The notes under the pieces: model-generated
The model's database searches: none
Seen by the model: the letters and a program-made list of their open reading frames with translations, nothing else
Told to the model about the DNA's origin: nothing
In this document: positions 4,194-57,606 of the stretch, one piece after another
Numbering within the stretch: the first letter of the stretch is position 1
Layout: every line of letters begins with the position of its first letter
DNA from: Gracilariopsis chorda
Taxonomy: Eukaryota > Rhodophyta > Florideophyceae > Gracilariales > Gracilariaceae
Assembly: GCA_003194525.1 (NCBI GenBank)
Contig: NBIV01000045.1
Span: 186,001-250,000, forward strand
Reading direction: 5' to 3'
DNA: 64,000 bases
Position numbers and translations under genes: made by a program

Positions 4194-4592
4194 GCGGTTT
4201 TGCTTGTTATGGAACAGTTTCTGAGCATTGGAGTCTTCGGGAAGAGGTGGAGTTTGTTGGAGGTGTGGGAGTGCGTCAATGATGGCCGCGTAAGTTTTGA
4301 GTGCTAACTACCACAGAGCATAGTTGGAAGTGTTTAGGTCTGGTATTTTGGGCGCTTTGTCTGATTCTATGGCTGTGATGGAGGGTGTGGGAAGTTGACT
4401 GGTGTGGCAGAGTATGTGGTTATCGTTCTGGATGATTATGGAGTTGGTGTAGAGGTCTTGTATGTGAGGATTCTTGCGAAGTTTGCGGCCGAGTTGCCGT
4501 GCCGCTCGCGCGGATGGGGGAGCCGTCGTGGACTTCTGTGGTGGGTCAAGTGCGGTGGGACTTAATGGCGCATGTAGCGTTTGCCCATAACC

Positions 4593-4682
4593 TGTGAGTG
4601 AGAGGCACTGAATTTCCCTTTACTTCGTCGTCCATCGTCGCCTAGCGTATGTATGGTTGTTCTACTGTAATGTTGTTTGACA
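4593..4682 (-). repeat. 5' LTR of copia-like element
   Basis: On the minus strand it starts TGTCAAACAAC and ends CTCACTCACA, giving TG...CA ends. The bases just inside (GGTTATGGGC, minus strand) are where a primer-binding site is expected. The second CAATC target copy follows at 4683-4687. Confidence 0.8.
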
Positions 4683-4814
4683 CAATCGAGTAAATTTCAC
4701 CAATTCCGCCCAATTACCATTCAAAACTCTTTTGAACCCGCCAATATTCATGGCCATCCTTTCAGCACTCGTGGCAGACATTTCGTTCATATTTGGCTTC
4801 TGGTGTTGACTCAG

Positions 4815-6835
4815 AATGAATGTTTCTCGATCTGTCTTTTCTACGAATACTTTAGCCCAAGAAAGCCCTGAAATAACCTACAATAAGGAATGCAATTCTG
4901 ACAATGCCAGTGATGAATACTTTGATACATGGGACGACAAAGAATCTGTAATAGCAGAAATAGGTGCAATTGAGGAACAAGAATTGTACAAGAGCAACTC
5001 GTACTGCGCTATTTGGACTAATTCAAGTAGGTTGTACCTGTTGAAGCATCACCTCATTTGCCTAACGTACACACAAAAACAAGAATTCAGTTTATTCAAT
5101 CTCTTCCTCAATAACTCTTATCTAGAATTTGTACGTTCTTGGACTAATAACCAGTTGCTTCGAGGGGGCAAGTGGCGCAAGGCCCATCGTATGGACGAGT
5201 TACAAACGCACATGGGCTGAAGTTGGCTACATCGGTTTAACGAATCAACCGACCTCGAGAATATTGGAAAATATCAGGATTATTTGGCATTTCATTCTTT
5301 CAGAAGACAATGAACCGCGATATATTTCCCAATATTCATGCCGCGCTGTGGCTATATGCAACGTACAATCCAGAGGTAGCTGTGGTAGACTCCTTTTTGC
5401 ATAGCCGACAAAGTTTGGAACACTTTCTACCAAACTCAGCAACATTATCAGTTCCAGTTGGCGTTAGATCTCTTGACGAAAACATCGTACGTTTTGACGG
5501 TCGTACATCTGCAAAGTCTTATATGAGTAGTACTGTCAAGTTTGGCATAAAGTTCTACGCTGTGGTGGACTGGTCACATGCGTAGCTTCACGTTGTATAA
5601 GATAACAGTTCAGTTAATAGATCAGGACAACACCAGTAACTCTCTACACGAAAATATTTAGAAATTTGAGAGAAGCAGTGGAAAAGATTATTGATGGAAC
5701 TCTGGTACCAAAGGGCTCTCTTTCCGCACTCTGGAGAGGGCAAATGGTCCATCAGACGTTGGTATTATCAAGACCTGAGCGTAGGAGGCTCATGGTAATG
5801 GACACATTCTACACTAGAAATGTCCTTGCGAGGCAATTATTCTGTCTAAGTGATTCTGAATGCAAAGTTCTGGAGACTGTTTGATTTTCGAATATCGATG
5901 GACCAAACCGTCCGGCACTAAACGAGGACATCAATCCGTTCAAAACGGCGGAGAGAGGTGAGTGGCCTCTAGTTCAAGTATACCAGAGAGAAAAAGGAGC
6001 AAATGAAGCGCCACCGGTGGCGGAGAATTGTGGTTTCATTGTTTTCAAGGACAGAGCGGTTGTTACGTTCTACACGAATGATCTAGTGGAGACACCTTCT
6101 TGTCGTATAAAAATGCCAGATGCACATGCATTCAGATGTGTGCATAGTGTTTCTTCGTTGAATAGATGGGCTGGTGACGAAACATTACGTCGAATGACAC
6201 TCCATGTTCCTTCGATAATTGTGGCATATAACATTTTTATGAATATTGTCGACATTGTTGATCAATATAGATCAATATCGGCTACTGTTAGTAAGGAATG
6301 CCGCGTGACGATGAATATACTTGCATTTGTTCTGAATGCAAGTATCATCAACGCTCATGCTTTAATGAACGCTATTAGATCCGAAATGGAAAATATTATT
6401 GACCTTGGTCTCATGAAGTAGAGAATAATTCTTTCTCTCGTTGCTGATCACCTAAAGTACAAGCAGGAGAGAACTTTTCTTTATTGATTGGAAGAAAAGA
6501 CGGGTTTGTCTACCGATAAGTCTTCATGTGGGTCCAATACTATCAATTTGCACATACTGCTCAAGACAGAAAGCCACAAGAGTGTTCAATACTATCTCTG
6601 CAAAGTGCTATGCACGCAAGGAAAAGTGGCATATACAATTTTTTCGTACATGGAATGTAAGCATGGCTTCCATATCAACTGTTTTGGATTCTACCACTTC
6701 AGTGAGCGCTTCCAAGAGAGGCGCCTTGACGTCTTTTACGCCGTCGAACACGCTAAACGCAGTGCAATTTGCGAAGGCAGCATTACCATAGTGACTTCAA
6801 CGATTATGAGCGCAAAAATTTTTCCCAACAAGTAA
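4815..6835 (+). pseudogene. piggyBac transposase (DDE_Tnp_1_7), decayed, copy 2
   Basis: The reading is spread over several frames and is collinear with the better preserved copy at 53361-55445. The three acidic catalytic blocks of the family are recognisable: VRSLDENIVRFDGRTSAKSY near 5460-5520, LMVMDTFYTRNVLARQL near 5790-5840, and NIVDIVDQYRS near 6240-6270. The C-terminal cysteine-rich finger (CKVLCTQGK, then ECKHGFHINCFGFYH) is at 6590-6705. Stops fall at 5218-5220, 5583-5585, 5882-5884 and 6419-6421, and a frame change lies after 5220, so no functional enzyme is made. The 5' end is displaced by the copia insertion. Family membership is clear from the three Asp blocks together with the finger. 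Confidence 0.85.
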
Positions 6836-6878
6836 ACTAGCTTTCTTTGAATCCTATATATGCTCCCTTTGGATCCGG

Positions 6879-7391
6879 TTACACTTTGCTCACGCCCTCC
6901 ATCGCATAATGCGGAACTGGAATGCGTCTAACCCTCCCCAGAAAACCGTACCTCTCGTAAATGAAAGTTTTATACGCGCTCTTGCGTGTTTTGTCCTTTT
7001 TACCTGGGCCGTTCTCCATGACCGGGGAAACACAGGCCACCTTCTTGAGAACGGAAGGACCAATTTGCATCCAATAGCACGGTGTACCGCCACAATGTAT
7101 GCAAACAACATCCTCGTTATAATATGTGATATTTGCCATTCGCGGCAATATGGGTTGCACTGGTTCGATTGTGAAAGGTTTTGTGGAAACGAGCGAATTG
7201 GTTTTAGGGCCAGCCGATGTTTCAGGTAAATGACCAGAAAGGTTTTGTTCATGAGATAGACTGCAAGTGCGTGTTTCTTGAGGCATAAATTGTATGATGT
7301 TCAAAAGTTTGCGTCGCACTGAAGGACCGTATATTGCCTGTTCAGGTGCAGAACTGTGCTCCTGTATCGCAGATGGCGCTGGGCGTAGCAT
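6879..7391 (-). CDS. piggyBac accessory ORF2: small Cys-rich protein (CIHCGGTPCYWMQ motif)
   Basis: An intact 170-residue ORF starting at an ATG (7389-7391), convergent with the transposase and ending 43 bp from it. The N-terminal half (about 1-85) is polar with no clear motif. The centre has C97-x2-C100-GGTP-C105-YWMQIGP. The basic C-terminal part ends KTFIYERYGFLGRVRR then IPVPHYAMEGV. The same protein, in the same position and orientation, is recognisable in piggyBac copy 1 (NEDIACHFCCGTPCYWMQLG, then YERHGFLRNGK). Conservation in two diverged copies shows that it belongs to the transposon rather than being a chance ORF. The Cys spacing suggests a small zinc-binding fold; the function is unknown. 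Confidence 0.75.
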   Translation of the reverse strand: MLRPAPSAIQEHSSAPEQAIYGPSVRRKLLNIIQFMPQETRTCSLSHEQNLSGHLPETSAGPKTNSLVSTKPFTIEPVQPILPRMANITYYNEDVVCIHCGGTPCYWMQIGPSVLKKVACVSPVMENGPGKKDKTRKSAYKTFIYERYGFLGRVRRIPVPHYAMEGVSKV

Positions 7392-7661
7392 TGTGACTTT
7401 AACGAGTAGAAGGGGGAACTAAAATCCGTGGAAAGTAGAAAATGATACGTTTAGAGCCGTTGCGGTCTTTTGTATTTTCTGAAGACGACGATTCACCCGA
7501 CAGACGTTCTACTGTGATTTGATGCGCTTGACATGGTCAAGAACAAGATGTGCATGAAAAGAACGGTCGGGAAATGCGAATCTGCCACTTCAGCCGCCGG
7601 AACGAAGGCTCTTGTCATGTTTCTATTGGAAATTCTTATGTCTACCACGCTAGACATTTCT

Positions 7662-7681
7662 TTCCGGTTCAAAACGGTTAG
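7662..7681. repeat. right terminal inverted repeat of piggyBac copy 2 plus degenerate TTAA
   Basis: TTCCGGTTCAAAACGG followed by TTAG. Compared with the complement of the copy 1 left end (TTCGGTTCAAAAGGG then TTAA) it has one extra base and two substitutions. Confidence 0.6.
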
Positions 7682-19429: not shown

Positions 19430-20694
19430 GGCAGAGAAGGAACAAGGATAGATAGGCATCAATATATTCCGAGGGTAATTACAAGTAAAAATGTTATTAA
19501 ATCAATCCACAAAGTAACGTCAGTCTTTTGAGCGCTTGAAACACAACAGGCTTGGTTACTACTTGGGCAGCTTGCGCTTCAGTCCTTATTGACTTTACGT
19601 CAATTACCTTGGTCTCCAGCAGATATTTTATGTGGTTATATTTTAGAGCAATATGCGTGTTCTTTTCCGAGACCTTTGGATTCTTCACGGTCAACATAGC
19701 AGTCGAACTTTCTGTTTCTATAGAGATGGGGAACATTTGAAGTTCATACTCCAGGACTGTTTCGTTGCGTAATTCCCAAAAAAAATGCGGAACCACGTTA
19801 CTGTTTTTTCAAAATACCACAGTGCCATGTATGTTGTGTCTACAGACGACAGCGCAACAATGGTTTGCTTTTTGGTCGTCCACATGACAGGTGTTATGTT
19901 CCTTTTTATTAATATTGCAGTCATAAACTTTCTCGTTCTACGACAACCAACTCAACCTGTCTCACAGTACGCCTCTATTGATGCTATATTATTGGCGGGA
20001 AAGAACAAGCAAGGACCCTTTGTAACCTCGAAGTATCTCAGTACTCTTTTTGTAAGCCGAAAATGCCTCACGCATGGGTCATGGACCTGATTTGTAAGCA
20101 TTGATGCGGAAAACACATGATGCCTGGACTCGATGAGACGCCCAAGTACACCAAACGTCCTACCAGTTTTCAGTAGTGGCCATGTCCTTTAGACGGAACA
20201 TGCCGTTCGTCCTCTCCACGAGCTGGGATGTCACATTGTGATGGCAATGGAGTTTGAACAAAGTTGGTATTGACGACACCAATTTATAGCATTGTTTTGT
20301 CAATATGTTTGCTTTGTTGTACCTTGATTCCGTTCTTGTCCCTCATTATATTGAATCCCACAAAACGTTCTGCCTCTCCAAAAACATTCAACTTAAAGAT
20401 ATTCTGCATCTCTGACTTGACGTCTTCCAGTAGAGACCGAGCGTTACAAGATGTCAGTAAGTCATCAACGACCACTACGATGGTAAAGGTTCCGCTGTTG
20501 GACTTGTATATATAGAATTGGCTGTCTGTGCTCGACTGGTTGAATTAAAAGCGCAATAGCTCCTTGTGCATGAGAGATCCTCATATTTTTACGGCCTGGT
20601 TATGCCGTATATTGACTTTAGAAGCAAGCATACCTTGCCAGGAACAAATGAGGACCCACAAGCGTTTTGGGGTTGTTCCATGATTAGAGGCTCC
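19430..20694 (-). mobile_element. copia relic: RT and RNase H pieces (fossil)
   Basis: Minus-strand pieces in copia order: PGKVCLLLKSIYGITRP (RT, ending near 20590), VVDDLLTSCNA and RFVGFNIMRDKNGIKVQQSK (20475-20284), then VMWTTKKQTIVALSSVDTTYM and KNTHIALKYNHIKY (RNase H, 19924-19500). The 5' side stops where the gypsy A LTR begins at 20695, so the gypsy element probably landed in this copia copy. Many breaks. Confidence 0.7.
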
Positions 20695-21491
20695 TGTAGT
20701 GCAATGCCCAGAAACATTAGGGCACCGAAAGATATTTGGTATCTTTCCTCGTTAGAGGTGAGCCCAGTTGAGTAGAGCCTTCCCAGGAGTGGCACGACGA
20801 TGTCGGGTTGTAAGGCCGAGGTCCTTTGTCGCGACTTGCGCAGAGAGTTTGAAACAAGAATCAGGAATTTGCAGGAGTGGTGTGTGAGGTTTGTGGTCCT
20901 CTCAAGACTTGAGATTTCCAAGTTAGTGGCATGGTAGAACACGAGCCGTGGGTAGCGATAAAGCCACCCTTTAAAGGGAAAAAGAAAGGGAGAGCTGAGT
21001 CACGAGTGTCGTGGCGAAGACTAAGGGCAGTGCCGGTAAATAAAACTTATGAAAGGCGAACGACAAGACAGTTGTAATACCAATCCGAATATCGGCGTCC
21101 TTTGCACGGGCAATGGAGCTAGACGTTCCGTATGCTACAGTGCTTCTCTCCAAACAGGAGTAGAGAATACACGAAGGTGGCCAGATCTAGAGCGAGCTCC
21201 CCAGGTTGGGTTCCTTTGCTGGGAAAGGTTTACTGGTGCGACGGCACCTCGCCGGCGCACTAAGTACTAATCATCCGAAAAATGAGTGTAGAAAAGATAA
21301 ATAAAATTAACTAAATTACTCCAATTCGGTGGTTCATTCCCACTACTGTGGCCAACCGCCAATTGACTCTTCCGTTTCCTACGTGTCAAATCCACTATTA
21401 GTTGTCGTAGTTCATGCAATTATTACATTACCGAAACATTCGGGAAATCAACCAAGTACCAAAAGTCCCTTCGTGAGGGCATCGCACTTAA
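20695..21491 (+). repeat. gypsy A LTR (5' LTR)
   Basis: About 800 bp, starting TGTAGTGCAATGCCC. It aligns along its whole length with the complement of 55811-56637: shared blocks include a GAGCCCAGTTGAGTAGAGCC-like stretch, a CCCCAGGTTGGG block, a TGGTGCGACGGCA block, CACTAAGTACTA, and ACTGTGGCCAACCGCCAATTG. An AATAAA-type signal (aaataaaatt) lies near 21299. The left boundary fits the TG start of the solo copy; the right boundary is approximate. Confidence 0.75.
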
Positions 21492-21512: not shown

Positions 21513-22984
21513 ATGCAACCTCAAACTCGAGCAAATCCCAGCGGAAAATGGGTGATAAAAGTCCTGGTGTCTTCGGGTGACCGGGTCAATCCTTTGCCTC
21601 AGAGAAACAATCTCTTACAACAGCAGCAAACCAGCCTTCCAAAAGTGCAAGTTCTTCACCTTTTCGCTCAACTCACCCAGATCATACCCTTTCGAAGGAG
21701 AAAATGAACAGTAACAACAGCCAATCTCCAGGATCAACTCCAGTCGGAAACTTCACAACCGGTTTCCAGTCAGTACCACTATTACAAGGGAGGCGAACTC
21801 CGGCACGGTCGGTCAATAATTGCGCAGGGTTCCAGCATTGGTTCCAACTTCCACAAGTGGTGACTCCTCCCAGACCGACCCCGGTGGCGACTTGGCCTTC
21901 TTGCAACGCCCTCGTAAGGTTAAATTCAGTGCATTGGAGTCATGCCTCTCAGCTCCAGCTTGGGCCGTTATTCCATCCCATTGCTACCCTCAACGAGGAT
22001 TTTGTTTCGGCCTACGCGGATGGTTCTAATACCCTGCCGGGGATCTGCCCACCTTCGTCACCTCGTCGTGGGACTGGCGGCATCGATGCGCAATCCCAGT
22101 ACACCATATCCGAAGACATTCGGGAGATTTTGCAGCTGCGGCTCAGACGGCCCTGGTGCGGATCGTATATCAATGGCAGAGCCGGGCGCCTTTCGAAATC
22201 CCGGTGCCTACCGGCTTTGGCATTGAACTCAGCCTATTCTGCACGCGGAGTGAAATCAGTTACGTCAAACGCCTGGCCAGCCTCGAAACCCTCGCGTGAA
22301 GGAACTTTCCCGCTTCGTGGCAGGAAGCCCTGCGTCCGGAACGAACGATCCTTTGGGCTGAATTACAGTACCTTCCCGGGCAGTCCCGGCCCAACTTCCT
22401 TCAAAACCTTACCTGTTATGAACGACGCTGGCGATCCCGATTTGGGAACTTTGTCCTATACGAAAACGTGGAGATTAAGCGGATAGCTCCGCCTCATCAA
22501 CAGGGTGGGTATGTCGCACTCCTCGAATGGTGGAGGTTTCATGAGGCCTTTCATGAGGCCTGCCAGGGTTGCTACATTGAGCTCGCGCCGGCACTCACGT
22601 ACATTGGTTCCTTTTTGATTCAAGATCCCCGGTCGGAGCTTTCGTCAATAATTGTAACGGAGTGGGCTGCCCGCACATTGGCATATATCCTCGCTGAGGT
22701 TTATGACCGGTACCCACTTTGGTTCATCCAGCCGCCTGTGCTGGCTGCTGTTCGCAACCTGGACCTCAGTGTCTCCCTTGGGTGTATTGCCAACAATGAC
22801 GAAGTACTACAAGTACTTGGTTTGATCGACAGTATTCAATGGAGCGAGGTCCCACTGGAACAGAGCGGTCAGCTTAACAGCAGCAGTGGCGGTAACGGTG
22901 GTCCGGGTCTAGGTAGGAATACCGCCCTTGCGGGAGAATTCATCTACGTCGATCCCTGGGAGTTCCGGGACATTTCCTCCGAGG
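21513..22984 (+). pseudogene. gypsy A gag region (fossil)
   Basis: Long overlapping plus-strand readings (21704-22486, 22468-22989). The last one is helical and well kept, with CYIELAPALTYIGSFLIQD and WAARTLAYILAEVYDRYP. Part of it is homologous to the minus-strand gag at 15.2-16.9 kb. No zinc knuckle is seen before the copia insertion. Confidence 0.55.
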
Positions 22985-23295
22985 TGTGAGAAAACAGCAA
23001 CTTCCGTATGGCACCATCTGGTGCAAAGAGCAGCAAAAGGTTCTGTGCTGCGCTGACAGCATGCTTGGTGCTAAAGTGCACCAAGTTCTAGTGTAAATCT
23101 TTCCAAAACAGAATGAAGGGTGTTGCTCCAACGATCAAATGGAGCAAGCACCTAAAGATACAAATGTGAAAACGAGTCTGCTCCGTAGTTACTGGAAGCT
23201 AGATACCATTAATTAGAGTAGCTTGAAAAGTAAACTGGCGATGTTGGAACTAGAACCAACGTTTCTACTCAGACATCCTACCTATTCTTGCAACA
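22985..23295 (+). repeat. 5' LTR of copia 22985-27841
   Basis: 311 bp, starts TGTGAGAAAACAGCAAC and ends CTTGCAACA. Flanked outside by CGAGG. Confidence 0.92.
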
Positions 23296-26980: not shown

Positions 26981-27535
26981 GTGCTGAAGTACCTACTCAG
27001 TACAGAGAATGATGCTTTAATCTACCGTGCAAACAATAATGATGGACTTGCTTGGTCATCTGATGTGCTCTTTTCAGGAGACAAACACGATTGCAAGTCC
27101 ACCAGTGGGTTTATGTTCCAATACGCAGGTGATGCAATATCTTGGCGTAGCAAGAAGCAAACAGTAGTTGCTCAATCAACACGGGAAGCCGAGTATGTGG
27201 CAATGTCTTTTGCAGTTCGAGAGGGCGTGTGGCTTAGAAGACTGATGAACGAACTGGTTGGACATGAGAACAGACTGATCACCATCTATGGAGATAAACA
27301 GGGAATGATATCACTTAGCAAAGAAAAGGTTTTGAATGAAAGAAGCAAACATATTGAGGTCAAATACCACTTGGTTCGTGATGCTGTCCAACGCAGCATC
27401 GTGAGAGTACTGGATCGCAATAGTACTGAGTTGGAAGCGGATTTGCTGACAAAGATTCATACCAGAGCAACCCATGAAAAGTTGGCTGTCATTTTCAGTT
27501 TGACGATTTTGACATTGGAAAGAGAGGAAGTGTGA
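26981..27535 (+). pseudogene. copia RNase H (fossil)
   Basis: LAWSSDVLFSGDKHDCKSTS, then ISWRSKKQTVVAQSTREAEY, then ERSKHIEVKYHLVRDAV: the standard copia RNase H blocks in order, ending right before the 3' LTR. Confidence 0.88.
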
Positions 27536-27841
27536 GAAAACAGCAAATTCCGTATGGCACCATCTGGTGCAGAGGGTAGCAAAACGTTCTGTGATGCGCG
27601 GACAACATGTTTGGTGCTAAGTTGCAACAATTATTCGTGTAAATCTTTCCAAAACGGAATGATGGGTGTTGCTCCAACGATCAAATGGAACAAGCACCGA
27701 AAGATACAAATGCTCAATCGAGTCTGCTCCGTAGTTACTGGAAGCTAGATACCATTAAGTAGTGTAGCTCGGAAAGTAAACTGGCAATGTTGGAACTAGA
27801 ACCAACCTTCCGTCTCAGACATCCTACCCATCCTTTCAACA
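27531..27841 (+). repeat. 3' LTR of copia 22985-27841
   Basis: 311 bp, starts TGTGAGAAAACAGCAAA and ends CTTTCAACA. Followed by the second CGAGG target copy. Confidence 0.92.
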
Positions 27842-36921: not shown

Positions 36922-39123
36922 TCACCCCCTAGACTGTTGGCACTCTGCTAAAATGTTTCCTAATGTTTCCATGACTCCCTTCGCATAAGATGCATTTGAG
37001 CCCACACTATCGAGCACATCATTCACTCTCTTAAACACGTCATCGTTCAGTTCATCGTCCACGTCTAGCAGCTCATATCGGCATACTTCGACATTCCTTC
37101 CACGAAATGTCTTTGATTTGGATCCCATAGAAGTGAGTACCAACTGCTTCTTTTGTGCTATGCTAAGGAGTTGTCGTATTCTGTACTTTTCTTCCACATC
37201 ACCGTTGAGGAACGGCCAATTTACTATCCCCACAGCCTTTCTACCTTCTGCCCTGAATTGGATGACTTTCCGCACTTGGTCGCTGCCTGAGTCATTTTGC
37301 AGAAAAAAGAGCTTCAACGATTTCAGAATTCTTTCTCTTCTGGTTGGCAGTAGAGTCAAACTCAGACCAAACACCTCGTGTACCGCATCTCGATGCAGTA
37401 CGATTCGTACCCTCGGTGAAGAGCTTATCTCATTCTGAAGCCTTAGTATCTCCGACTGTGAATCGTTTTTGAGCTTTTTCTTGTTATTTGTATCATCTCT
37501 GATGTCCTGCAGTTGCTTCACCCCTTCCAGAATTGAATGCCCAATTCGAGTCATGAACACTTCTGATTCCCAAATCGCCTTTCGGAGGCGGTCACGATCC
37601 TTTTGAAAGATTTCCTGTTTTGCATTGTAGAAGTATAACCTGTTGCTTGGAAATTCAAAAGAGACCACTTGTGAGAGCTCTTTTACCCAGTAAGCTTTAA
37701 TTTCATCTAAAACTGACGGTTTTGTTTTTTCTGCATTTAGCCCAATGCAAACCGATAGGCACGGCTTAAAAGCGTTTCCAAAAGCCTTTTTGTATATAGA
37801 TAATGTTCTTCGTAAAGAATATGGTATTCGACTTCCCGTCTTTGAAACCAGCAGAATCGATGACACCGTGTTCTCCCGCAGAAGGTGTTCATATAAAAGA
37901 TGCTGGAAGTGTCTATCTTGTAGATGACCATCATTCATTCCGGGCGTGTCATATACCTTAATGTGTTGTCTTGAAGCAAGTAGCCCATGCGGTTCAACCA
38001 ATTTTCCGGAAATATCAAATGTACCTGTACCTGCATGGGACACACGAAAATGTTTGTTTCCGGTAAGCGAGTTGGCCAGAGTTGATTTCCCTTCTCCAGT
38101 TTCTCCTAACAGATACACGTTCTTCACTATAAGGTCATTTTTCTTGGTCTCAAACCATTTGTTTAACATTTCAACAATGTCTTCATACCCACTAGAATTC
38201 ATTTCTTGCATTGCACTGCCAACGAGATTCGTGAAGTCAATGTATTGCTTTGGACTGGGCCAATTGTACCTATGGAATGGAATCATGTTGAATGGTGTTC
38301 AGCTTCGGTTAGAAGGAGAAAACTCTGAGTTTGGGAGTCTTCGCGACAAAACCTTGTGTATTGCTTAATTAATAACTTACGTTAGAGTTATAAGACATGC
38401 ATTCGGCTTTAGGTGCTCATCCCTTCGTGATATCGGGCCGTCATCTGTTGAGTGAGCATACGCGCCTCTCGGATCTCGAATGGAATCGCAAAATACCTGA
38501 CATAAATGATACAAACATCCCGTTGTTAAGATGTGATCATTTCTCTGGGAATCGTCTTTTGCATATGTGGTTATGTTCACATTTATGCGGTCCTCGGTGT
38601 CATGCTTCACAACGGAAAAAACGTGCAGTTCTTCCAGCTTTTGAAGCTCAGAAATTATTCGCTGGATAGATGAGGCTCTGTCCATAGTTACATGCTTAAT
38701 ATGCGGGGTTGGGAATCCAAGGTCTTCGTCGTCTTCATCATCATCAAATGATATGACTTCGAGTTTCATTTGACTCACTGTGATTTCAATTTGATCCACG
38801 ACCGGGCCATTAACGAGATCATATATCATCATTCCTATGTTCACTATGCGAATTTTAACCGCAGCGTCCTGGGCGTTTATTGTAGTGAGCATGGTGTTCT
38901 TTACGCTCAAGTAATTCCCAGTTTTTATAGCTTGTTGTATTGACAGAATCTGATGGTTTATGGTTTCCATGTTTTTGTCAAATTTAAGGCGCATATTCTC
39001 CACGATTCCTTTGATCTTCAGCACTTCTTCTCTGGTTTCTTCCATCGAGGGGTCTGAAGTGTAAGCAGAATATAGCCCTGCGATACCCTTCACTAGAAGC
39101 TCAAGAATGATGCCTTCATTCAT
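36922..39123 (-). CDS. AIG1/GIMAP-like GTPase A (two exons, 696 aa)
   Basis: Exon 1 is 39123-38381 and exon 2 is 38269-36922. The 111-bp intron has GTAAGT and TTCCATAG borders and phase 2, and removing it joins the frames exactly. The start ATG at 39121-39123 is chosen over one 10 codons upstream because MNEGIILELLVKG lines up with the start of GTPase B. Residues 1-247 form a helical N-terminal domain with an acidic loop (SFDDDEDDEDLG). YNWP follows at 249-252. The GTPase has a P-loop GETGEGKST (303-311) and a G3 box YDTPGMND (D355); the expected G4 NKxD/TKxD box is replaced by CIGLNAEKTK. The layout resembles AIG1/GIMAP (TRAFAC, septin-like) GTPases, which bind GTP and often act at membranes. 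A charged region (KKKLKNDSQSEILRLQNEI) follows. It is divergent to GTPase B. The cellular role is unknown. Confidence 0.85.
38270..38380 (-). other. intron of GTPase A
   Basis: 111 bp, donor AAC|GTAAGTTATT and acceptor CCATTCCATAG|G. Phase 2, directly before the YNWP codons, at the same place as in GTPase B. Confidence 0.85.
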
Positions 39124-40067: not shown

Positions 40068-42471
40068 ATGGCTGAGACCATAGTATTCAAAAAGGTTCTA
40101 ACAGGAATGATGATGGTCCTGCGCCGGTCTTTATCGAAAAGTAAATTGGAAAGTGACTTATGTAGAGCTACCGAGAAAGAGGTGGAAGATTTTCACGGTA
40201 TTCTTCAAAGCCTTAAGTCAAGAAGCGAAGGCATCTCTATTGAATTTGACAGTGCATGTGATTCCTTATATACTGCGACAACTGGAGATGTTGAGCATGA
40301 ACCGCAGGAGTCATCTATGCCTGCCAATGGACGGGATGAATGGTTGTCAGCTTTCTTCAAAATGATTCTTGTTATGTTAAGGGGAACTGCTATAGAAACC
40401 ATTCAAATTGAGATTAACGATATTAAGAGACCGAGCGAAATTATCAAGCTCGGAAGTTCTTCATGTTCATTTCACGCAAATGAATCAGAAGAAACCATTT
40501 TTCAGAGTCTTAAAGAGCAAAAAATGTTGGATACTCTTTTTTGCCCAGAAAAAAATGCTTTCGATACATGTTGTGGACTATTGACAATCTATATCAGTGC
40601 TACTGGAAAGCCAGAGGTTCCCACTTTGGAAGACTTCGTGATAGCAACAGGGATGCTTTACCAATTCGGAAAATCATTGCGGGAGTGGAGTAGACAACTG
40701 AGAAATGCCATCCTAGAAGTAGAGGGAGACGGAATTGTGCTACGGGGCTCCAAGAATGACGCATCTTCTATAAGGGTCAGGTACGTTGAGTCTCTCTCCC
40801 TGCGTCTTCTCTTCTAACGTTCGCTACCGTGTTCTTAATTCAACTAACTTACACAAATCAATATTTGCGTTCGCAATCTGCCATCTGTTCATCATGAAAA
40901 ACTCCAGGTATAATTGGCCAAACTTGTTTCAGATGATCAGTATGCTCGAAGAACAAAGGTCGCACAGCACAGATGTCGAAGTTGCATTGGAATACACCTC
41001 AGCTAATGAAACAGAAGAACTGGATGAAAACTGTGAGTCTCCGAAAGCTCAGAACACGGATTCAGAAATATTCAAAGCTGCGCAAAATTCGGACAAGGAG
41101 AACTCTCATCAGAAAGAAGATGATAGGGATTCGAAAGAAACCAAATCTCAAAGTGAAATTCACCCTGCCGTTTCAGCAAGTTTGGCACTCTCTCCCCATT
41201 TACCTAACGGTTTGCAGAGTGATACGAAATCAGAACAGGTAAAACCAAACTCTAGACTGGGCAAAACCGGCTTAGAATACGAACCTCATCCAGTCGAGTC
41301 ATCACAAACCTCACGGTCTCAAAATGAACCTTATTCAGATGAAAGAGAGACAGCTCAGGTTAAGAATGTGTTCTTGCTTGGGCTCACAGGGGAAGGAAAG
41401 TCCACGCTGGCAAATGCTATAACCAAATCCGAACAATTTGCAGTATCCCACGCCAGCACAGGCACAAGAGAAGTCTCTAATGCTCTGGTAGAAACCGATG
41501 AGAAGGTTAGTATTATGGTATGGGATACACCAGGAATGAATGATGAACGCGGATCAGACAATTATTTTCATAAGGAGCTCGGAAGAGTTATAACGAGGAC
41601 ACAAACAGCAGCAGCGATTGTTTACGTCTGTAAGCAAGGAGGAAGAGTTCCAGCCAGTTTAAAGGAAACAACAATTCGATATCGGAAAAGCCTTGGTGAA
41701 TCTCTTATGTCCTGTTTGTGTGTCTGTGTTGGTATGAACGCCACCATAGAAGAAAAGGCAACTTTAGAGGCCATAACTCAATACTGGCGACATGAATTAT
41801 ATTCAACACTTGGCTATAATCTTCCAGAGGAAAGGATCTTTTTCTTCGATGCAAGGAACACAGATGGCCAACCAGAGTTTAAGAGATTTGAAAAGTGGAT
41901 TGCGAATGCAAGCGTACGTCGACTTGGAGTGGGAAACACTGTGTTTGAAGGGCTTCGCCAAGTTAGGAACGGTACCGCTGTCCAGCAAACCAGGAAAGAT
42001 ATGGCTCTAGGGTCAAAGGAGAATGTCAAGGCCATCACTGAGGACGTGTCGAGTTATGCAGTCAAAATGATTAAGTACAGTCAGCACGGGACAGCCAAAG
42101 TCCAAATATGCCTTTACATGACTGATAAATCTCTTATGGACGGCAAAATCCACATCTCCAAGAATAGACTTCTGAGCAGATTAAAGCGAAGGACTTCCGA
42201 GGAACATCCACGGAGGATCGAGTTCTCTGGAAGTGGGGACAAAGCGGTGAAAGTTCTCAACTCGGTGTTGCGAGGGAGAGACAATGTGGAAAAAGTTGCT
42301 GAGCTTCTTTACAGTGCTGAGAAGGAGAATTTGGTTGTAGTGAAGATGCATGAAAGGGTTGATCGTTCGAGAACTCAAACTGAGTTAGTATTTTGTTACG
42401 CTTTTGTTGACATCGATTCAGTGCTAAGCACGGAGGTTAAGAGGAAGTTGGAAGCTTCTGAAGTAATGTAG
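40068..42471 (+). CDS. AIG1/GIMAP-like GTPase B (two exons, 758 aa)
   Basis: Exon 1 is 40068-40780 and exon 2 is 40908-42471. The 127-bp intron (GTACGTTGAG...ACTCCAG) is phase 2 and ends directly before YNWP (239-242), as in GTPase A. Residues 1-238 are the N-terminal helical domain; IEINDIKRPSEIIKL and VIATGMLYQFGKSLREW match IEITVSQMKLEVISF and ILTTGCLYHLCQVFCDS of A. Residues about 255-390 are an acidic, Ser/Glu/Lys-rich, probably disordered linker that A lacks. The GTPase has a P-loop GLTGEGKST (396-404), SHASTGT switch region and G3 WDTPGMND (D444); the G4 position reads CVGMNATIEE rather than NKxD. The remaining part is helical to the stop. GTP binding is expected from the family. The partner or target is unknown. 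Without splicing, the reading stops at 40815-40817, so the intron matters. Confidence 0.87.
40781..40907 (+). other. intron of GTPase B
   Basis: 127 bp, donor GTCAG|GTACGTTGAG, acceptor AAAACTCCAG|GTATAATTGG. Phase 2; restores an open frame of 758 codons. Confidence 0.85.
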
Positions 42472-48540: not shown

Positions 48541-48934
48541 TGTTGTATAATACAGCCAGCGATTACGCGTCTGTCGCAGAAATAGGCTTGCAAATGTGCC
48601 CCGCCTACTGTTTTCTACGCAAATGCGTTCAGAGCATACCGTACTTAATTGTATTGGTTGTGCGATGATAGCAATATCTTGTATCTTCAATAGCCCACAT
48701 CAGGCTGCGCAAGCTATCGTTTGGTCGAGTCAGTGTCAACTGACCCGGCAGGTGCTTATAAAGGCTATCCGAATTCTCGGATGGCCACTCATGAGAGGAG
48801 GCAACTCTCGTTGAGTGTACCCACTGTTGTTCCCCTGCGCTCGTCACTACAGCATTTGCACCCTTTTCGTGGCATCTTTCACCGTATTGCCTGCCGTTTT
48901 CGTTCTTTTCAGAACCGTACTCCAGTACTTAACA
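48541..48934 (+). repeat. 5' LTR of gypsy B
   Basis: 394 bp, starts TGTTGTATAATACAGCC and ends CCAGTACTTAACA. Contains a TATAAAG-type box (CTTATAAAGGC near 48756). Confidence 0.92.
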
Positions 48935-48991
48935 GACAAGCGCTTTGTTCTTAAAGAGCAAAATGTCTGTAGTACTGTTCAAAGTGCGATA

Positions 48992-49576
48992 ATGACTACC
49001 TCCAACTACGGTTTTGTTGCTGTCATTCAACCCCCGCAACTGAAATCTGTAGATCAACCGGCTCTGATCAAATTCGAGACGGCCTTCGCTGCATACAGAG
49101 CCAAGGTCGAAGACGTGAACAGAGATCGCGATGAAGATGCTAAATTAACAGTTGCCACGGTAAAGGATTGTGTGGAACCAAATGTATTACACGGCTTATG
49201 TGTTATGGGCGACATCGAAGCTGCTCAAACTCTTGAATATGGTACTTTGGACAAAGTACAGGCTCAGTTTGAAAGAGCTTCTAGCTCATCCCCGAAACAC
49301 CTCGCTGAGCGTATCGATGCTGCACTTCGCATAGTCTCCTTAAAAATGAGCAAAGAAGCCCCTGATGGTAGTGTATCAAACTTTATTATTTCAGTGATTA
49401 CTGCGTTGGACCAGAACAACGCTTCAGAAATATTGAAGGACACTCACCTGGCAAAGAAGTTTCTTGACCGCCTTGTCGGGAAGTTTCAACCCGACGTACT
49501 GCAGGAACGCATTCAAATGATGAGGAGGGCATGGGAAAGAAGAACAGCTTGCAACTATAAAGCTTTTCAGAGATGA
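48992..49576 (+). pseudogene. gypsy B Gag (fossil)
   Basis: Reading from MTTSNYGFVAVIQPPQLKSV: a short helical Gag (FETAFAAYRAKVEDVNRD, DIEAAQTLEYGTLDKVQ) of the type found in gypsy elements of oomycetes and algae. A nearby continuation lies in another frame. Confidence 0.65.
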
Positions 49577-49922
49577 GGTATCCAACATCGCTCTCGAATT
49601 TTCTCTGACGGAAACTGCACGAGCACGTGTTAGTCCACGTAAAAGCCGTAGTTTTTGTGAACACAGCAAAGCAAACACCGAAGTTGTTGGTACCGGAAAC
49701 CCGAAGATAACATCTAACGCAGATCCTGCGGTGTCAAACAGTCGTACCAGTGAGCGGAAAGACACAGAATGGAATAAGCCGTGTCTTAATGAGGACTGTG
49801 AAGGTGTTCATTGTCTCAAGGACTGTCACTTTACCTCTCCCGAGAAAAAGAAGTAACGTTTCGAGAAGCATTATGGAAATAAGAAGACTAAGAAAGCCAA
49901 GACGGTTACAGGTGTATCTAAC

Positions 49923-52900
49923 GTGACGACAAAAGACCCAGATGGAAATGAAGGACGTTTCAGGGTAGCATTGGAAGACACTGTGTTTGAAAGAGTTCTT
50001 GGAGACTCTGGTGCAGATTTCAGCGCAATCGATGCGAAGACGTTTGACAAGGTACAAGCGGCGGTTCAAGATATCAGAGTCAAGGCTTTGCCAACTCCAC
50101 TGACCCTTGAAGGTGCTTTCAATTCAAAGGGTATTTTATCATCCATACGATTCGAGAATTAGAGGCCGTTGGTGCCATATACAAAAACCCTTCCGCTCGT
50201 TGGGCCTCGCCTGCCCTTGCAGTGCCGAAGCCCGGACCTACCAAAGTACGGTTCACTGTGGATCTGCGCGGACCCAACGCAAGCAACATACCGATTCAGT
50301 CCGCAATGCCACACCTTGAGTCCAAGTTCCAGGACATTTCAGGAAGCACTTGCTTCGCAAATATCGACCTAACGCATGTTGGCAAGTTCCTCTGTCTCCG
50401 GAATCACAGGAAATGATGTCGATTCAAACTCCACTCGGCGTATACTCCTTTAAACGTCTTCTAAAAGGTGGTAGTGACTCCGGAAATCACTTCCAAGCAG
50501 TATTGTGTGAAAAATTCGACGGACACGTCGACAAGATGCTTCAATGGATAGATGATTTTCTCTTCTACGCGAACAACGAAGAAGAGCCCCTCAACAATAT
50601 CCAATCTTTCCTTGTTGTCTGCAAGGAAACAAGACTCAAGATACATGCAGAAAAGTCAACTCTATTTGCACACCAGGTCCAGTTCTGCAGAAGGATCATT
50701 TCGGCACAAGGTATAGAGTATGATCCACGACATTTAAGCACATTGGTGTCCATGAAGACCCCCAAAATGGCAAGTGAACTCCAACTGTTCGTATGCGCTA
50801 CGAACTGGATGCGTAACGCAATCCCTGCCTACGCCGAGCGAATTGCTTCACTGCACGCTCTACTCGAGGAATGTTATTCCAAAGTCGGTAAGAGAACCAA
50901 GCAAGCAGTTCACAACCTTTCCCTTGGCACCTCATGGAGCGCCGCCACACATGACTCAGCTTTCGCTGACATCAAAGATCAATTAGCCGCTTCGGTCAAG
51001 CTTGCGTACCCAAAATTCAAGCACATCCTATGTCTCTTCACAGCTGCCTCAGAGACTCACTGGGCAGCCATTCTCACCCAGGTTCTATACAAATATCGGA
51101 CCAAAAGTATCGAGGAACAACCACACGAGCCTCTCTGTTTCCTTTCTGGAGCATTCTCAGGATCAGCAGTCAACTGGTCCGTTCCAGAGAAGGAAGGCTA
51201 CGCGATCGTAGAAGCAATGTGTCGATTAGACTACCTGGTTCTGGGCCATGATGTAAATATCTTCACTGATCACGCTAATCTGGTATATCTTTTCGACCCT
51301 TACGGACGCAATCCAGGAATGGCAAGACACATAGCAAGCAAATTAATGCGTTGGGCAATCAAATTAAGCGCATTTAGATACGTTTTGGAGCATTTACCCG
51401 GAGAAAGAAACGTTTGGGCAGATATGTTGACCCTGTGGGCTGTGAGATCCAGTTGTGCAGTACGCGCTGTATACGTTCCACGCGCCATGGCCTTGATGTA
51501 CGCACCCATCAATCCAGGAGTAGACTCAAAATTTGACTGGCCAAATTTGAAGGACATTCGGCAGGCACAGGAACGCTCCGCCGAGTCACCGCCAACTGGG
51601 TTCACGACTACCAATGAGGGAGTTCAGAACTGGAATGGTGCCTTTAGGATCCCGAGTGATGAAGATCTGCTCAAGTTGGGAATACTCATTGCAGCGCGCA
51701 CTGGTCATGGCGGTCATAGAGCTTTCAATGTAACTGCCACCGCAGTTAAGGCTCATTTTTACTGGAAGGGTATGGACCATAACGTGAAGACGTTGTCGAC
51801 TCTTGTCTGCATTGCCTTTGCACGCAGTCTGGTAAGATTATTCCACGTCCCCTGGGCCACTCCATGCATGTAAATGAACCAAATGAACTTCTGTATTTTG
51901 ATTTCTGCTACATGTTTCCTGGTGAAGATGAGTTCCTGTACTTTTTAGTATTTAAGGACGATCATAGCGGATACGTATGGCTCACACCAGCTACCAAGAC
52001 CACTGCAGAAGTCGTCGCAAACGCAATGATTAAATGGTTTGCCGCTTTTGGCGTGGTACGAAAGTGGGTATCTGATAGAGGTTCACATTTCAAGAACCAA
52101 GTTATCAGATTTTTGCAAGAGAAGAGAAAGTCATCTCATCACTTTACACTCGCGTACTTTCCTTGGTCGAATGGAACGGTGGAAGTTCTGTGTCGAGAGC
52201 TGCTGAGGACATGTCGTGCGCTGCTTTCGGAATACCAACTGCCCCACAGCTGCTGGCCCAGTGTTTTGCCGGTTGTTCAGTCCATACTCAACAATTCGTC
52301 GCTGCATTGTCTTGGGAACCGATGCCCTTTGACATTCTTCACTGGTCACAAACAAGACTCTCCTATGACTGCAATCACGCGCAGGATAGGTAAGAAGACA
52401 AAATTTCTCAACATTGATGACGTACGACGACTGCAGCTGAGACAAATTGAAGATATGCAGTGCGCATTGAACAACATGCATAAGGATGTCGCAATCCGAT
52501 CTGGTAAGAAACGTGGACAAGCAGTCGACCATCACAATCGTAAGACTAATGTCCATCCTATTAATTTTACCGAAGGGGACTTTGTTTTGCGCGGGGTTCA
52601 ACAACGCGATCACACTCGTAAGCCGTCTTTAAAGTCGCTTGGCCCATAATGCGTCACAAAATGCCGGTTTGGATACATCTTTCTCATAAAGTCTCTCGTG
52701 GATGGATCGACAATGGAGGTTCATGGTCGTCGTCTGAAGTTCTTTCGTAATAAGGATTTTGAAGTCACAGAAGAACTACTGGGCCATCTTGCGTATCAAC
52801 AAGGCGAAATGCTTGTAATAGATCGCTTCCTTGATCTAAGAAGGCAGAAAGGAACTACGGAAGTATTGCTAAAGGGGCATAGTTTTGCGGTCGACGAGAC

Positions 52901-53018
52901 TGATTGGGTTTCTGTTGAGTCTCTGCAACAGGACGTTCCAGCTATGGTACAAGAGAACCTGACGGAAGTATCTACAGCGGGATCTCCACGACAACGCGCT
53001 ATCGCTGACCATCTCTGA
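49923..53018 (+). pseudogene. gypsy B Pol (fossil)
   Basis: Protease (VLGDSGADFSAIDAKTF), RT (TKVRFTVDLRGPNASNIPIQ; MLQWIDDFLFYAN with the DD box), thumb/RNase H (LQLFVCATNWMRNAIP; CLFTAASETHWAAILTQVL), a HLPGERNVWADMLTLW block typical of this lineage, integrase zinc region (GHGGHRAFNVTATAVKAHFY), integrase core (LVFKDDHSGYVWLTPATKTT; WVSDRGSHFKNQVIRFLQ) and a chromodomain-like end (LVIDRFLDLRRQKGTTEVLL). The largest pieces are 50350-51873 and 51864-52649. Confidence 0.85.
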
Positions 53019-53047
53019 GTAATCAAGTGGGGTTGTCACCTACTTAA

Positions 53048-53062
53048 CCCTTTTGAACCGAA
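53048..53062 (+). repeat. left terminal inverted repeat, piggyBac copy 1
   Basis: CCCTTTTGAACCGAA directly after TTAA. It matches the right end inverted at 14 of 15 positions, and begins CCC as in known piggyBac elements. Confidence 0.85.
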
Positions 53063-53070
53063 ACGATTAT

Positions 53071-53174
53071 CGCTACTATACTAGCGTTAAGGTGAAAGCC
53101 TTATTGGCTTGCGACGAAAACAACTGGTTCTCTGCTCGCCAGGTGTCTTCAAAGCTTAAAGCTAGTATACTAGC
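53071..53174. repeat. subterminal palindromes, left end of piggyBac copy 1
   Basis: CGCTACTATACTAGCGTTAA (53071-53090) and GCTAGTATACTAGC (53161-53174, perfect palindrome, again followed by GTTAA). The right end carries the related perfect palindrome GCTACTATAGTAGC at 57552-57565. Likely transposase-binding sites; that is inference. Confidence 0.65.
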
Positions 53175-53360
53175 GTTAAAGATTACTTTGTCCTCATTGG
53201 CTTTCAAATGATTCTATGATGATGACAACCAATTAGAACAGTCTATATAGGGAGATATGAGCCACAATCAGAGCGCTCTTTGCCACCCGCATGTTATTGC
53301 AAATTAATGCATAATGCAGAACAACGAGACACAACTTGAAGCCTCATAACGCAGTCAAAA

Positions 53361-55445
53361 GTGCCCCGAAATAGACAGACTACCGCCAAATATAGTGACC
53401 CAATCTTACATCTCACATCCGCTGTTGGTATGTTTGCAAAACTGAACGGTTCTACAGCTAACGCCACTGCAAAATTCAATGACGTAGAATGCAACTTTCA
53501 CGAAGCTGGTGAAATAGACTGGCAGAAAACGGACTACGAACAGTTTCTGGTCATTTCTTTGGGCGCAGCTGAAAAACAATCTGTATACGATACAGTACCG
53601 TATTGCTCTTCGTGGCGCAACAGAAGTGGGTTATATTTGACAATGTCAGAACTTATACAACGTACTTATGCTCACAGGGGTGAACTGGGATTGCTTGGGT
53701 TATTCTTGAATGGATCCTTTTTAGAAAGTGTACGTGAGTGGACGAGTAAAGAACTTGTAAAGCGTGGGCAGAGAAGTAAGGCATTGAGAATGGACGAACT
53801 ATTTGCATATCTTTGGCTGGAACTAGCTACATCTATACATCGTCTCAATCATCTTCGAGATTACTGGTCCAATTTAGACCTCTTAGGGATACCATTTTTC
53901 AAACAGACTATGGGACGGGATAAGTTTATGAACATCCGAGCTTCGCTCCGTCTTTATCCTTGGTATGATCCCGATGCTGCCGTTCTTGACCCGTTGAGGC
54001 ACGGCCGTCAGCTTCTTGAACATTTTGCAAGAAATGCACCTACAATTGCGGTTCCTGTTGGTGTGAGTTCTCTTGACGAAAACACAGTACGATGTAAAGG
54101 TCGTACTGGGGCCCGATCTTATATGAAATCGAAACCGGTCAAGTTTGGGATTCGCTTTTACGCTGTGTTGGGTTGGTTACACCCATATTTACATAGCGTG
54201 CAAGATAATGTTTCTGGAAATAAGTCAGGTCAATCGCCTGTACAGCGATACACATATACATTTAGAAATCTCCAAGGTGCTGTGGAACGAAAAGTGGACG
54301 GAACACTGGTTGCTAAATCTACTTTTTCGGCGTTATGGTGCGCCCAAATGGCGCATCAGACACAACTGCACCCTACACCTTCTTGTGGACGTTTGATGGT
54401 GATGGACGACTTCTACACACGCCACGTCCTTGCCCGTCAGTTACTTTGCCTTAGCGATGGGGAGTGCGGAGTTTTGGGTACTGTTCGTTTTACCAACATT
54501 GACGGAATGAACAGACCAGCGCTGAAAGAGGCCATCGAGAGCCTCTAACATGCAAATCGTGGTGACTGGCGTTTAGTTCAAGTGTTACAGAGACACGGTA
54601 GCGCAAACATGCCGGTAACAGTCGCAGAGAAAACAGGGTTTGTCGTTTTCAAAGACAGAGCAGTTGTGTCGTTTTACTAAAATGATCTCGCAGATACGCC
54701 AAGGTTACGCATTCACGCTCTGGATCCACATGCTGTTACATGCGTGCACGGACTTGCGCCTTTACAAAGTTGGGTTGGACATGAATCTGTACGGCGAACA
54801 ACCTTACAAGTTCCTGGAATTATCGTTGCTTACAGCCTTTTTATGAATGCTGTAGACAGGTTCGATCAATTTCGATCGACTTCGGTGACGTTGAGAAAGA
54901 AGAAGCGAGTTTCAATGAGCCTTCTTACCTTCATCCTGGATGCGAGTATTATCAACGCCTACGCGTTATTGAACGCAATCAGCAAGAGAGGAGACACTAT
55001 TATTGACCTTCAAGTCATGAAACAGAGGATAATCAAACAGCTTGTATCGGACCACGTTACATACCAACAACAAAGAGCGTCAATTTTGTCATCTACATGC
55101 CGTGAAGACGCTGCTTGTCTTCGTGTCAGGCAAGGTGGGGAAAGAAGAGACCATCATATTTTGCTCGAAACTGAGGGCAAGCGTAGCCTACGGTGTTTGC
55201 TGTGCAAAGCCCTGTCAAGATCTAACCCAGGGTACACTATCTACTCCTGTACGGAGTGCAAGTGTGGATTCCACGTCAATTGCTTCGCACTTTTCCATCA
55301 GAAAGAGGCGTTCCGAACTGTTCGTCCTGATATATATAACGCAGTGAAATCTGCCGAGGTTATACTGTCATCCTCATTACATCGCAATAGAAGAAACAAA
55401 GTTACCGCAACTCTGAAAACCGTCCGACTGCTGTACAAGAAGTAA
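53361..55445 (+). pseudogene. piggyBac transposase (DDE_Tnp_1_7), nearly intact, copy 1
   Basis: One frame runs through about 694 codons with only two in-frame TAA stops (54546-54548, 54678-54680). The frame opens at a GTG (53361); the first in-frame ATG is 53430, so the true start is unclear and might lie in an upstream exon. Domains: N-terminal helical region (1-130), DDE core with D239 (SSLDENTV then KGRTGARSYMKSKPVKFG), D349 (LMVMDDFYTRHVLA) and D499 (NAVDRFDQFRS), then a C-terminal Cys-rich finger (CLLCKALSRSNPG, YSCTECKCGFHVNCFALFHQ, about 610-650). All three catalytic Asp are present. Piggybac enzymes cut and paste at TTAA, which agrees with the element's ends. Confidence 0.9.
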
Positions 55446-55467
55446 AACTATTGTTTTTGAACCCCAT

Positions 55468-56765
55468 TTACGCACTACATTCATCTGGCCAAAGTCGTCT
55501 GATTCCTTCCAATGCGCATCGCGGTATTTGAACTCGTTTCCCATTCCTTAGGAAGCCATGTCTTTCGTACGTGAACGCCTTATACGCAGATTTCCGTGCA
55601 TGGTTATTGTCCTTTTTTTGCTTTACCAAAAGCAGGATAACAATGTGCTACTTTCTCGACGACTGTCGGACCTAGCTGCATCCAGTAGCACGGAGTTCCA
55701 CAACAGAAGTGGCACGCAATGTCCTCATTGTGAATGGTAATAGGCGGAAAGAAACGCAGTACTGCGTTTACTTCAACGGTGCTCGAATCATTTGTGGGCT
55801 CAAGGGCCATTGAAGTGCAACGCCCTCAGGGAGGGATTCTTGGTACTTGATCGTTTTCCCGATATTATCGGTTGTGTAGTGTGTGTATGAATTACGCCCG
55901 ACAATGGTTGGTATGGACACGTGGGACACGGGTTTGGGTCAATTGGCGGTTGGCCACAGTAGTGGATGTTGCCACGAAATGTGGAGTATTTTAGTTAATA
56001 TTATTTATTATCTTCACACCCATTTCTGGGAAGCTAGTACTTAGTGCGACGGCGCACTGCCGTCGCACCAGAAAACCTTCCCCAACAAGGGACCCCAACC
56101 TGGGGAATTGGCTCTAGTTGTTGCCGCTTGCGCGCGTGCTCTACTCCTCCTTGGAGGGAAACGCCGTAAACCACGGGACATCTAACCCCCTTGCAAATCT
56201 AAAGGGACCCATCACTGGGAGTATAATTGTTCCAATTGCATTGGTGTTTCGCCCTGTATAGGGAGTCCTGTCCACCGGCATCGCCGTTCGTCCCCGTTGC
56301 TCTCGCTACTCACTTCGCCCTCTCTTCCTCCTTTTCGCCCTTCCTTTTTCCTTTTTTTAAGGTAGCACCTCCCGCTATCCGCGGCCCTCGTGTGCGCATC
56401 CGCTCACACACCCCCACTTACGTGGAAACATACCTCTACTGAGGATCACACCCCGCTCACGCGGATACAGATTCTTCGCCTCCACCTCCCTGCGCAATTC
56501 GCGACAGGTGTCCCTGGTCTTACAAACTAACTTCGCCGTGACACCTCTGGGAGGGCTCTACCCAACTGGGTTCAACTCGTGAGAGGAAGACCCCGAACTT
56601 CTTTCGGTGTTTTGCCTCTTTTGGGCATTGCACCACAGCCATATTGCAGTTTGCGGTTTCTTGTGAAGTCGCATACTGGAGTTTCGATGTGTGGCTCTCA
56701 TGTAAGCGGCACGCGCAATGTGATGCTTTGATGGAGTTGCCAAGACAAAGTTGGAAGTGGCTCAT
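55468..56765 (-). pseudogene. piggyBac accessory ORF2, copy 1, split by a solo LTR
   Basis: Homologue of the intact ORF at 6879-7391, convergent to the transposase and ending 22 bp from it. The part after the insertion reads ITIHNEDIACHFCCGTPCYW MQLGPTVVEKVA (55740-55650), and after one frame change in a run of seven A near 55613 it continues AYKAFTYERHGFLRNGKR to a stop at 55468. The part before the insertion (56765-56643) has SKLQYATSQETANCNMA, matching LNIIQFMPQETRTCSLS of copy 2. The solo LTR sits between them. The Cys pattern C-x2-C-x4-C and the WMQ block are kept. Confidence 0.75.
55811..56637 (-). mobile_element. solo gypsy A LTR (fossil)
   Basis: 827 bp, TG...CA on the minus strand (starts TGTGGTGCAATGCCC, ends GTTGCACTTCA), flanked by the 5-bp target duplication GCCAT (55806-55810, 56638-56642). 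It aligns over its whole length with the gypsy A LTR at 20695-21491. Such solo LTRs arise by recombination between the two LTRs of an element. It lies within accessory ORF2 of piggyBac copy 1. Confidence 0.9.
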
Positions 56766-56799
56766 GTTTGGTTCCTGTTTGTTTTATTGCAGAACATGG

Positions 56800-57350: not shown

Positions 57351-57396
57351 GGTTTGGTAGGAGAGCACTCGAAGGTACAAGTGATGGTATCCAATT

Positions 57397-57439
57397 GCGG
57401 TGGTGTGTGAAATTTTGAGAAGACTTCACACTCCACCGC
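57397..57439. repeat. strong hairpin near right end of piggyBac copy 1
   Basis: GCGGTGGTGTGTGAA and TTCACACTCCACCGC form a 15-bp stem with one mismatch and a 13-base loop. Confidence 0.6.
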
Positions 57440-57576: not shown

Positions 57577-57591
57577 TTCGGCTCAAAAGGG
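57577..57591 (-). repeat. right terminal inverted repeat, piggyBac copy 1
   Basis: TTCGGCTCAAAAGGG, one mismatch to the inverted left end. GTAA follows, one base off TTAA. Confidence 0.85.
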
Positions 57592-57606
57592 GTAATTACG
57601 GGGCGC

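Follow-up and report, generated by a model that had tools for sequence, protein, structure and literature searches.

Two piggyBac elements with a second gene

The window, by which we mean the whole 64,000-nucleotide stretch of Gracilariopsis chorda DNA analysed here, contains two copies of a piggyBac element, at positions 4723-7681 (copy 2) and 53044-57595 (copy 1). Transposase probes returned these two copies, with the remaining matches at chance level, and each copy carries a second gene, ORF2, besides its transposase (Table 1). The sequence-only reading of this DNA had placed the second gene in the same position and orientation in both copies, convergent with the transposase, and this is what we observed: a tblastn search with the ORF2 of copy 2 recovered a homologue in copy 1 (E=1e-18; pieces 55607-55780 and 55492-55617, minus strand), and in each copy the gene lies between the termini.

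The copy-1 transposase is of piggyBac type, as judged from matches to Pfam DDE_Tnp_1_7 (E=9.1e-23) and, in the PDB, to piggyBat (E=2.5e-11) and 6x67 (E=1.6e-8). Its motifs include SLDEN, VMDDFY and AVDRFDQ; SLDEN and VDRFDQ align to piggyBat, and we presume the assignment of the catalytic aspartates, including that of VMDDFY as the second. The C-terminus forms a zinc-finger-like region, with Pfam matches of the C1/PHD type that are all below the cut-off.

The 16-mer GGTTCAAAAGGGTTAA, which is the left end of copy 1, is found at four places in the window when up to 3 mismatches are allowed (itself included), whereas 0.72 are expected and four were reached in 1 of 100 shuffles. The four places are the left and right ends of the two copies. 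The right TIR of copy 1 matches in 11 of 12 letters, compared with 8 of 12 for the next best site within 55831-58700. The right ends of the two copies align with a score of 81 (200 letter shuffles gave at most 47), over a stretch that was picked after the terminus had been found and that includes it. The flanks, compared at the element ends only, are TTAA-like in copy 1 and more decayed in copy 2. Because termini were located at both ends of both copies, ORF2 can be placed inside the element.

Table 1. Features of the two piggyBac copies, in order of position in the window
Feature	Positions	Strand	Remarks
Left terminus, copy 2	4723..4738	+	Decayed TTAA followed by CTCTTTTGAACC; TIR CCCTTTTGAACC with 1/12 mismatch
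Transposase of copy 2, pseudogene	4816..6835	+	Aligned part interrupted by 2 frameshifts and 6 in-frame stops
ORF2 of copy 2	6837..7391	-	Read-through frame, including the part beyond the premature TAA
P2RX7_C-like (P2X7 ballast C-terminal) module, copy-2 ORF2	6846..7007	-	Residues 129-182 of the read-through
C-x2-C-x4-C motif of ORF2 (C97, C100, C105)	7077..7103	-	Candidate zinc ligands
Right terminus, copy 2	7666..7681	+	GGTTCAAAACGG followed by TTAG
Left terminus, copy 1	53044..53059	+	TTAA followed by CCCTTTTGAACC
Transposase of copy 1	53430..55445	+	One frame; in-frame TAA at 54546-54548 and 54678-54680
ORF2 of copy 1, pseudogene	55447..55825	-	Split between two frames (55607-55825 and 55447-55647); the TAA at 55468-55470 is premature
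Stretch also present at 20694-21489 (minus)	55813..56638		By eye, interpreted as the 3' portion of a copia-like retroelement that inserted into copy 1
Right terminus, copy 1	57580..57595	+	GGCTCAAAAGGG followed by GTAA; 11/12 TIR letters

Surroundings of the two copies

Imperfect palindromes around CTACTATA/TAG lie near both ends of copy 1 (53067-53091, 53155-53179 and 57552-57565) and are possibly sub-terminal binding repeats for the transposase. A gypsy-type LTR element was recognized by eye at 48543-58000, with LTRs of 392 bp that differ by 16 mismatches and gag/pol-like ORFs in 48992-52649; copy 1 seems to be nested between its pol and its 3' LTR. A 91-bp direct repeat, 87% identical (91-181 and 4589-4679), flanks copia-like ORFs, and its second unit lies just before copy 2. 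Many ORFs of the window are, by eye, what we take to be gypsy and copia retroelements. Other retroelement-like ORFs are flanked by a 315-bp direct repeat, 88% identical, at 22981-23295 and 27527-27841, possibly a pair of LTRs. Two AIG1-type GTPase ORFs, at 36922-39123 (minus; Pfam AIG1, E=1.9e-10) and 40068-42471 (plus; E=5.8e-13), are transcribed apart, each with a further long ORF adjoining on the same strand, and are possibly an inverted duplicate gene pair. No tRNA and no Rfam family at gathering score was detected in the window.

ORF2 and its true end

The open frame of 170 codons that the sequence-only reading had reported in copy 2 was located at 6879-7391 on the minus strand, running from ATG to TAA. 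When the 3-kb region was resampled 300 times with an order-1 Markov model, a frame of this length starting with ATG arose twice. The motifs quoted in that reading (C-x2-C-x4-C, CGGTPCYWMQ or CCGTPCYWMQ, and YERYGFL or YERHGFL) are present as given in the two ORF2 proteins, and C97, C100 and C105 are common to both.

The apparent ORF2 stops of both copies are premature. In copy 2, the TAA at 6879-6881 is followed in frame by PDPKGAYIGFKES and then by a TAG at 6837-6839, which leaves 1 bp between the end of ORF2 and the transposase TAA at 6833-6835. In copy 1, the frame continues past its TAA as MGFKNN and extends into the 3' end of the transposase. The tails can be aligned across the stops (PDPKGAYIGFK versus PDECSA-stop-MGFK). 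The spacings of 43 bp (6836-6878) and 22 bp (55446-55467) given earlier for the two gene pairs were measured correctly, but they run to the premature ORF2 stops and are therefore secondary, a product of decay.

The ORF2 of copy 1 also has a frameshift near 55610-55640, and a retroelement-like insertion from about 55813 seems to truncate its N-terminal part. Most of residues 1-73 of the copy-2 protein thus fall outside the comparison between copies.

Selection and decay

The second gene had been described as conserved, and a comparison of pN/pS between the copies bears this out. Over 110 aligned codons, ORF2 has a pN/pS of 0.35 (bootstrap 0.26-0.46), a value that is rough, as are the following ones, because synonymous sites are saturated and the pairing of codons was guided by the protein. 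The transposase has 0.42 (0.37-0.47) over 630 codons, and four shifted-frame controls for ORF2 gave the much higher values of 0.96, 1.52, 1.55 and 1.79. The ORF2 differences are distributed as 38, 26 and 71 over the three codon positions. The pattern of substitution indicates that ORF2 was under purifying selection before it decayed, about as strong as that on the transposase; for selection, as for the homology discussed below, the sample consists of the two copies in this window, neither of which is intact.

It had also been proposed that ORF2 was retained longer than the transposase, which we reject. The ORF2 of copy 2 is itself prematurely stopped, and its one lesion in 183 codons, with 2.3 expected at the transposase rate, is unremarkable (P(<=1)=0.33); when the count is restricted to the 170 open codons, it is 0 versus 2.2 expected (P=0.12). 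The rate derives from the 6 stops and 2 frameshifts counted in 630 codons of the copy-2 transposase. Moreover, it is the healthier transposase, that of copy 1 with its two stops, that goes with the worse ORF2, broken by a frameshift, a stop and a probable insertion. Both piggyBac copies are now dead elements.

Similarity of the ORF2 tail to the P2X7 ballast domain

ORF2 had been left as an unclassified protein. This no longer holds, in that its last ~55 residues match the Pfam family P2RX7_C just below the cut-off; we had suspected the P2X7 ballast before the profile match was obtained. The C-terminal piece of copy 1 scores 22.4 bits (E=1.3e-4), short of the gathering cut-off of 23.5. With lesions replaced by X, the read-through of copy 1 scores 21.1 bits (E=3.2e-4) and that of copy 2 14.1 bits (E=0.045), and both matches extend to position 192, where the model ends; without its tail, the copy-1 read-through scores 18.7 bits (E=0.0017). 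Neither the 170-aa ORF2 of copy 2 as annotated (at E<=1 or E<=10) nor the N-terminal piece of copy 1 has a Pfam match.

When the two ORF2 tails were compared with three P2X7 tails using hhalign, they aligned without gaps over 48 columns (Prob 82, E=1.1e-5), and none of 500 column shuffles reached 28.3 (best 19.4). Over the whole 472-595 region the match is confined to the last 62 columns (E=2.5e-5), and the cysteine motif lies outside the alignment. Against human P2X7, whose letters were confirmed by the PDB, both copies align gaplessly over 47-48 residues with 13 identities each, and the score was reached by 5 of 20000 shuffles for copy 1 and 1 of 20000 for copy 2; against a second P2X7 sequence these counts are 85 and 30 of 20000. 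When the 1655 frames of the window were scored against human P2X7 alone, the copy-1 piece took rank 4 and the copy-2 frame rank 131, each lacking its post-stop tail. Because of these ranks, similarity to a single P2X7 sequence is insufficient, and the profile comparison is the stronger of the two.

Human P2X7 numbering minus 410 gives the numbering of the copy-2 ORF2. Ten human residues (R546, A549, Y550, R557, G559, P570, P582, G590, F591 and K592) are identical in both copies, with C572, I577 and R578 shared by copy 1 only and K579, G586 and Y588 by copy 2 only. The ballast binds zinc through cysteines in three clusters, for which passages of PMC7016195 give forms that include WCxCx2C and LCCRx3GxC. 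In ORF2 the first two clusters are unaligned, with C-x2-C-x4-C present instead, and of the seven ballast cysteines a single one, the cluster-3 equivalent of C572, can be aligned, in copy 1 only (it is Y in copy 2). ORF2 has no P2X channel. As for the five GDP-contact residues of rat, both copies retain R546, and copy 1 also retains R578; K stands in place of H547, and neither R574 nor K583 is present, so that three of the five are missing in copy 1 and four in copy 2. In invertebrate ballast proteins, according to passages of PMC7016195, R546 and R578 are kept.

Searches of PDB sequences with ORF2 lacking the post-stop tail did not find P2X7. The sole phmmer match of the copy-1 tail in the PDB was a ribosomal protein (E=0.93), which we took as chance. 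Two AlphaFold models of ORF2 were unusable (mean pLDDT 42.7 and 36.0), and the 74 matches that Foldseek returned for the first of them at E<=10, none at E<=0.001 and with no P2X7 among the 50 listed, do not allow interpretation with a model of such low confidence. Judged from the alignments, the ORF2 tail is homologous to the C-terminal part of the cytoplasmic ballast of P2X7, and we are confident in identifying ORF2 as a second piggyBac gene with a P2RX7_C-like tail.

Relation to known transposons

Classical piggyBac and piggyBat elements have a single gene, and the fusion partner of Teratorn is a herpesvirus. The elements described here share with classical piggyBac and piggyBat the transposase family and the C-terminal zinc-finger-like region, and apparently also the TTAA-like target and the short CCC...GGG termini. 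Teratorn, as described in part of PMC10175614, is likewise piggyBac-related and has further genes, but measures 180 kb.

The closest precedent is one published sentence, in the passages of Kojima and Bao 2022 (PMC9587614) that bear on this subject, on piggyBac families with a KolX-C-like protein. As described there, these families likewise combine a piggyBac transposase with a second protein whose C-terminus is ballast- or KolX-like and from which most of the seven cysteines are absent; the same passages name neither families nor hosts and say nothing of orientation or selection, and the comparison with ORF2 is one of descriptions. In our elements the second protein lies between the termini in both copies, most of the seven conserved cysteines are absent, and the likeness to KolX-C is established by proxy, through P2RX7_C and the P2X7 tail. 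KolX of Kol0 Kolobok is, again from the passages of PMC9587614, comparable to ORF2 in being related to the P2X7 ballast and in accompanying the transposase of a DNA transposon that duplicates TTAA, but that transposase is of Kolobok type, and KolX is said to have the ballast fold with its seven cysteines, by which description we set it apart from ORF2 in its piggyBac element. Kol0 is defined there by a Kolobok transposase and by 5'-RR and YY-3' termini, whereas the elements here have a piggyBac-type transposase and CCC/GGG termini.

Among the literature matches listed, none besides this one described a KolX-like partner in piggyBac, and a term search of the Xenopus Kolobok paper (PMC6004289) returned no P2X, second ORF, two genes or accessory. 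A two-gene piggyBac lineage had been put forward as new. The conserved second gene stands (two of two copies, inside the termini, constrained in sequence), but its kind has already been published in the passage cited (PMC9587614), and ORF2 appears to be a new member of a kind that has hardly been described, rather than of an unknown one.

A search of plasmids returned no relative of the 170-aa protein. In IMG/VR and GTDB contigs, where few eukaryotes are expected and close relatives only would be found, no ORF2 relative was confirmed by tblastn at E<=1e-3, nor was any transposase relative in IMG/VR contigs; each scan had yielded 2 to 85 short matched stretches before this confirmation. The missing relatives in IMG/VR and GTDB are weak evidence of absence. 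There was no PHROG match for the ORF2 queries (the 170-aa protein, the copy-1 N-terminal piece and a third query).

Possible role of ORF2

From the above we infer that ORF2 most likely encodes a small protein that binds zinc and either helps or regulates transposition. Our best explanation, which we hold to be probable, is a second gene of piggyBac with a ballast-like tail and predicted zinc binding, whose product acts with the transposase. The cysteine motif makes a zinc-binding role plausible: ORF2 would be a small soluble factor, in which a predicted zinc ion would be held by C97, C100, C105 and the cysteine of an IP-x-C motif (in copy 1; Y in copy 2). Together with the transposase, the protein would work either on the TTAA target or terminus complex, or in regulating transposition. 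Target duplication of TTAA is common to Kolobok and piggyBac (stated in PMC9587614), which suggests that ORF2 may take part in excision or in a step at the TTAA target; that it regulates transposition is roughly equally likely. The choice of a helper over other roles is a tentative one, with the odds somewhat against it.

ORF2 may instead be a regulator or a factor of host interaction, for instance one that represses transposition or counteracts silencing, which we regard as a possible but less favoured alternative to a helper acting with the transposase. In this case one can understand that it is a separate convergent gene instead of a domain of the transposase, whose own zinc-finger-like C-terminus, even with profile scores below the cut-off, means that binding of the ends need not be supplied by ORF2; the facing stop codons would also make the 3' ends of the two transcripts overlap. 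No result here separates a regulator from a helper.

We think it unlikely that ORF2 is a captured fragment of a host gene, carried as a passive passenger by one sub-lineage with no role in transposition. Only two copies were seen, and ballast-like genes also stand alone in animals, as reported in part of PMC7016195, both of which fit such a capture; however, ORF2 is present in both diverged copies, and purifying selection on it was apparently at least equal to that on the transposase across a divergence that has saturated synonymous sites.

Slightly less credible again is that the similarity to P2RX7_C is due to convergence or chance, with ORF2 an unrelated, lineage-specific zinc protein. The profile scores under the gathering score and the ranks of the two frames against human P2X7 alone would agree with this, but the same gapless register recurs in two diverged copies over 47-48 residues, including the GFK past both premature stops, the shuffles of sequences and of columns rarely or never reached the observed scores, and the sentence of PMC9587614 attributes this fold family to partners of piggyBac as well. 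Finally, a chance open frame antisense to the element, with no gene, can be dismissed despite two more long frames there, of 120 aa on the minus and 106 aa on the plus strand, given the protein homology between copies, the uneven differences by codon position and a pN/pS that is low in the ORF2 frame, unlike in two shifted frames of the same strand.

A second piggyBac gene of the kind preferred here could belong to a wider picture, which we offer as a speculation with the odds clearly against it. KolX- and ballast-like proteins would be a portable accessory module of TTAA-inserting transposons in two superfamilies, Kolobok and piggyBac, aiding a common step such as capture of the TTAA target or precise excision; the vertebrate P2X7 ballast would have descended from this module, and the piggyBac form would keep only the tail, with the zinc site rebuilt as C-x2-C-x4-C...C. 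ORF2 backs a one-sentence published remark on a KolX- or P2X7-ballast-like second gene in piggyBac with coordinates, evidence of selection and a gapless alignment. It makes testable whether the ballast fold serves TTAA-specific transposition, and it bears on the origin of the P2X7 ballast domain.
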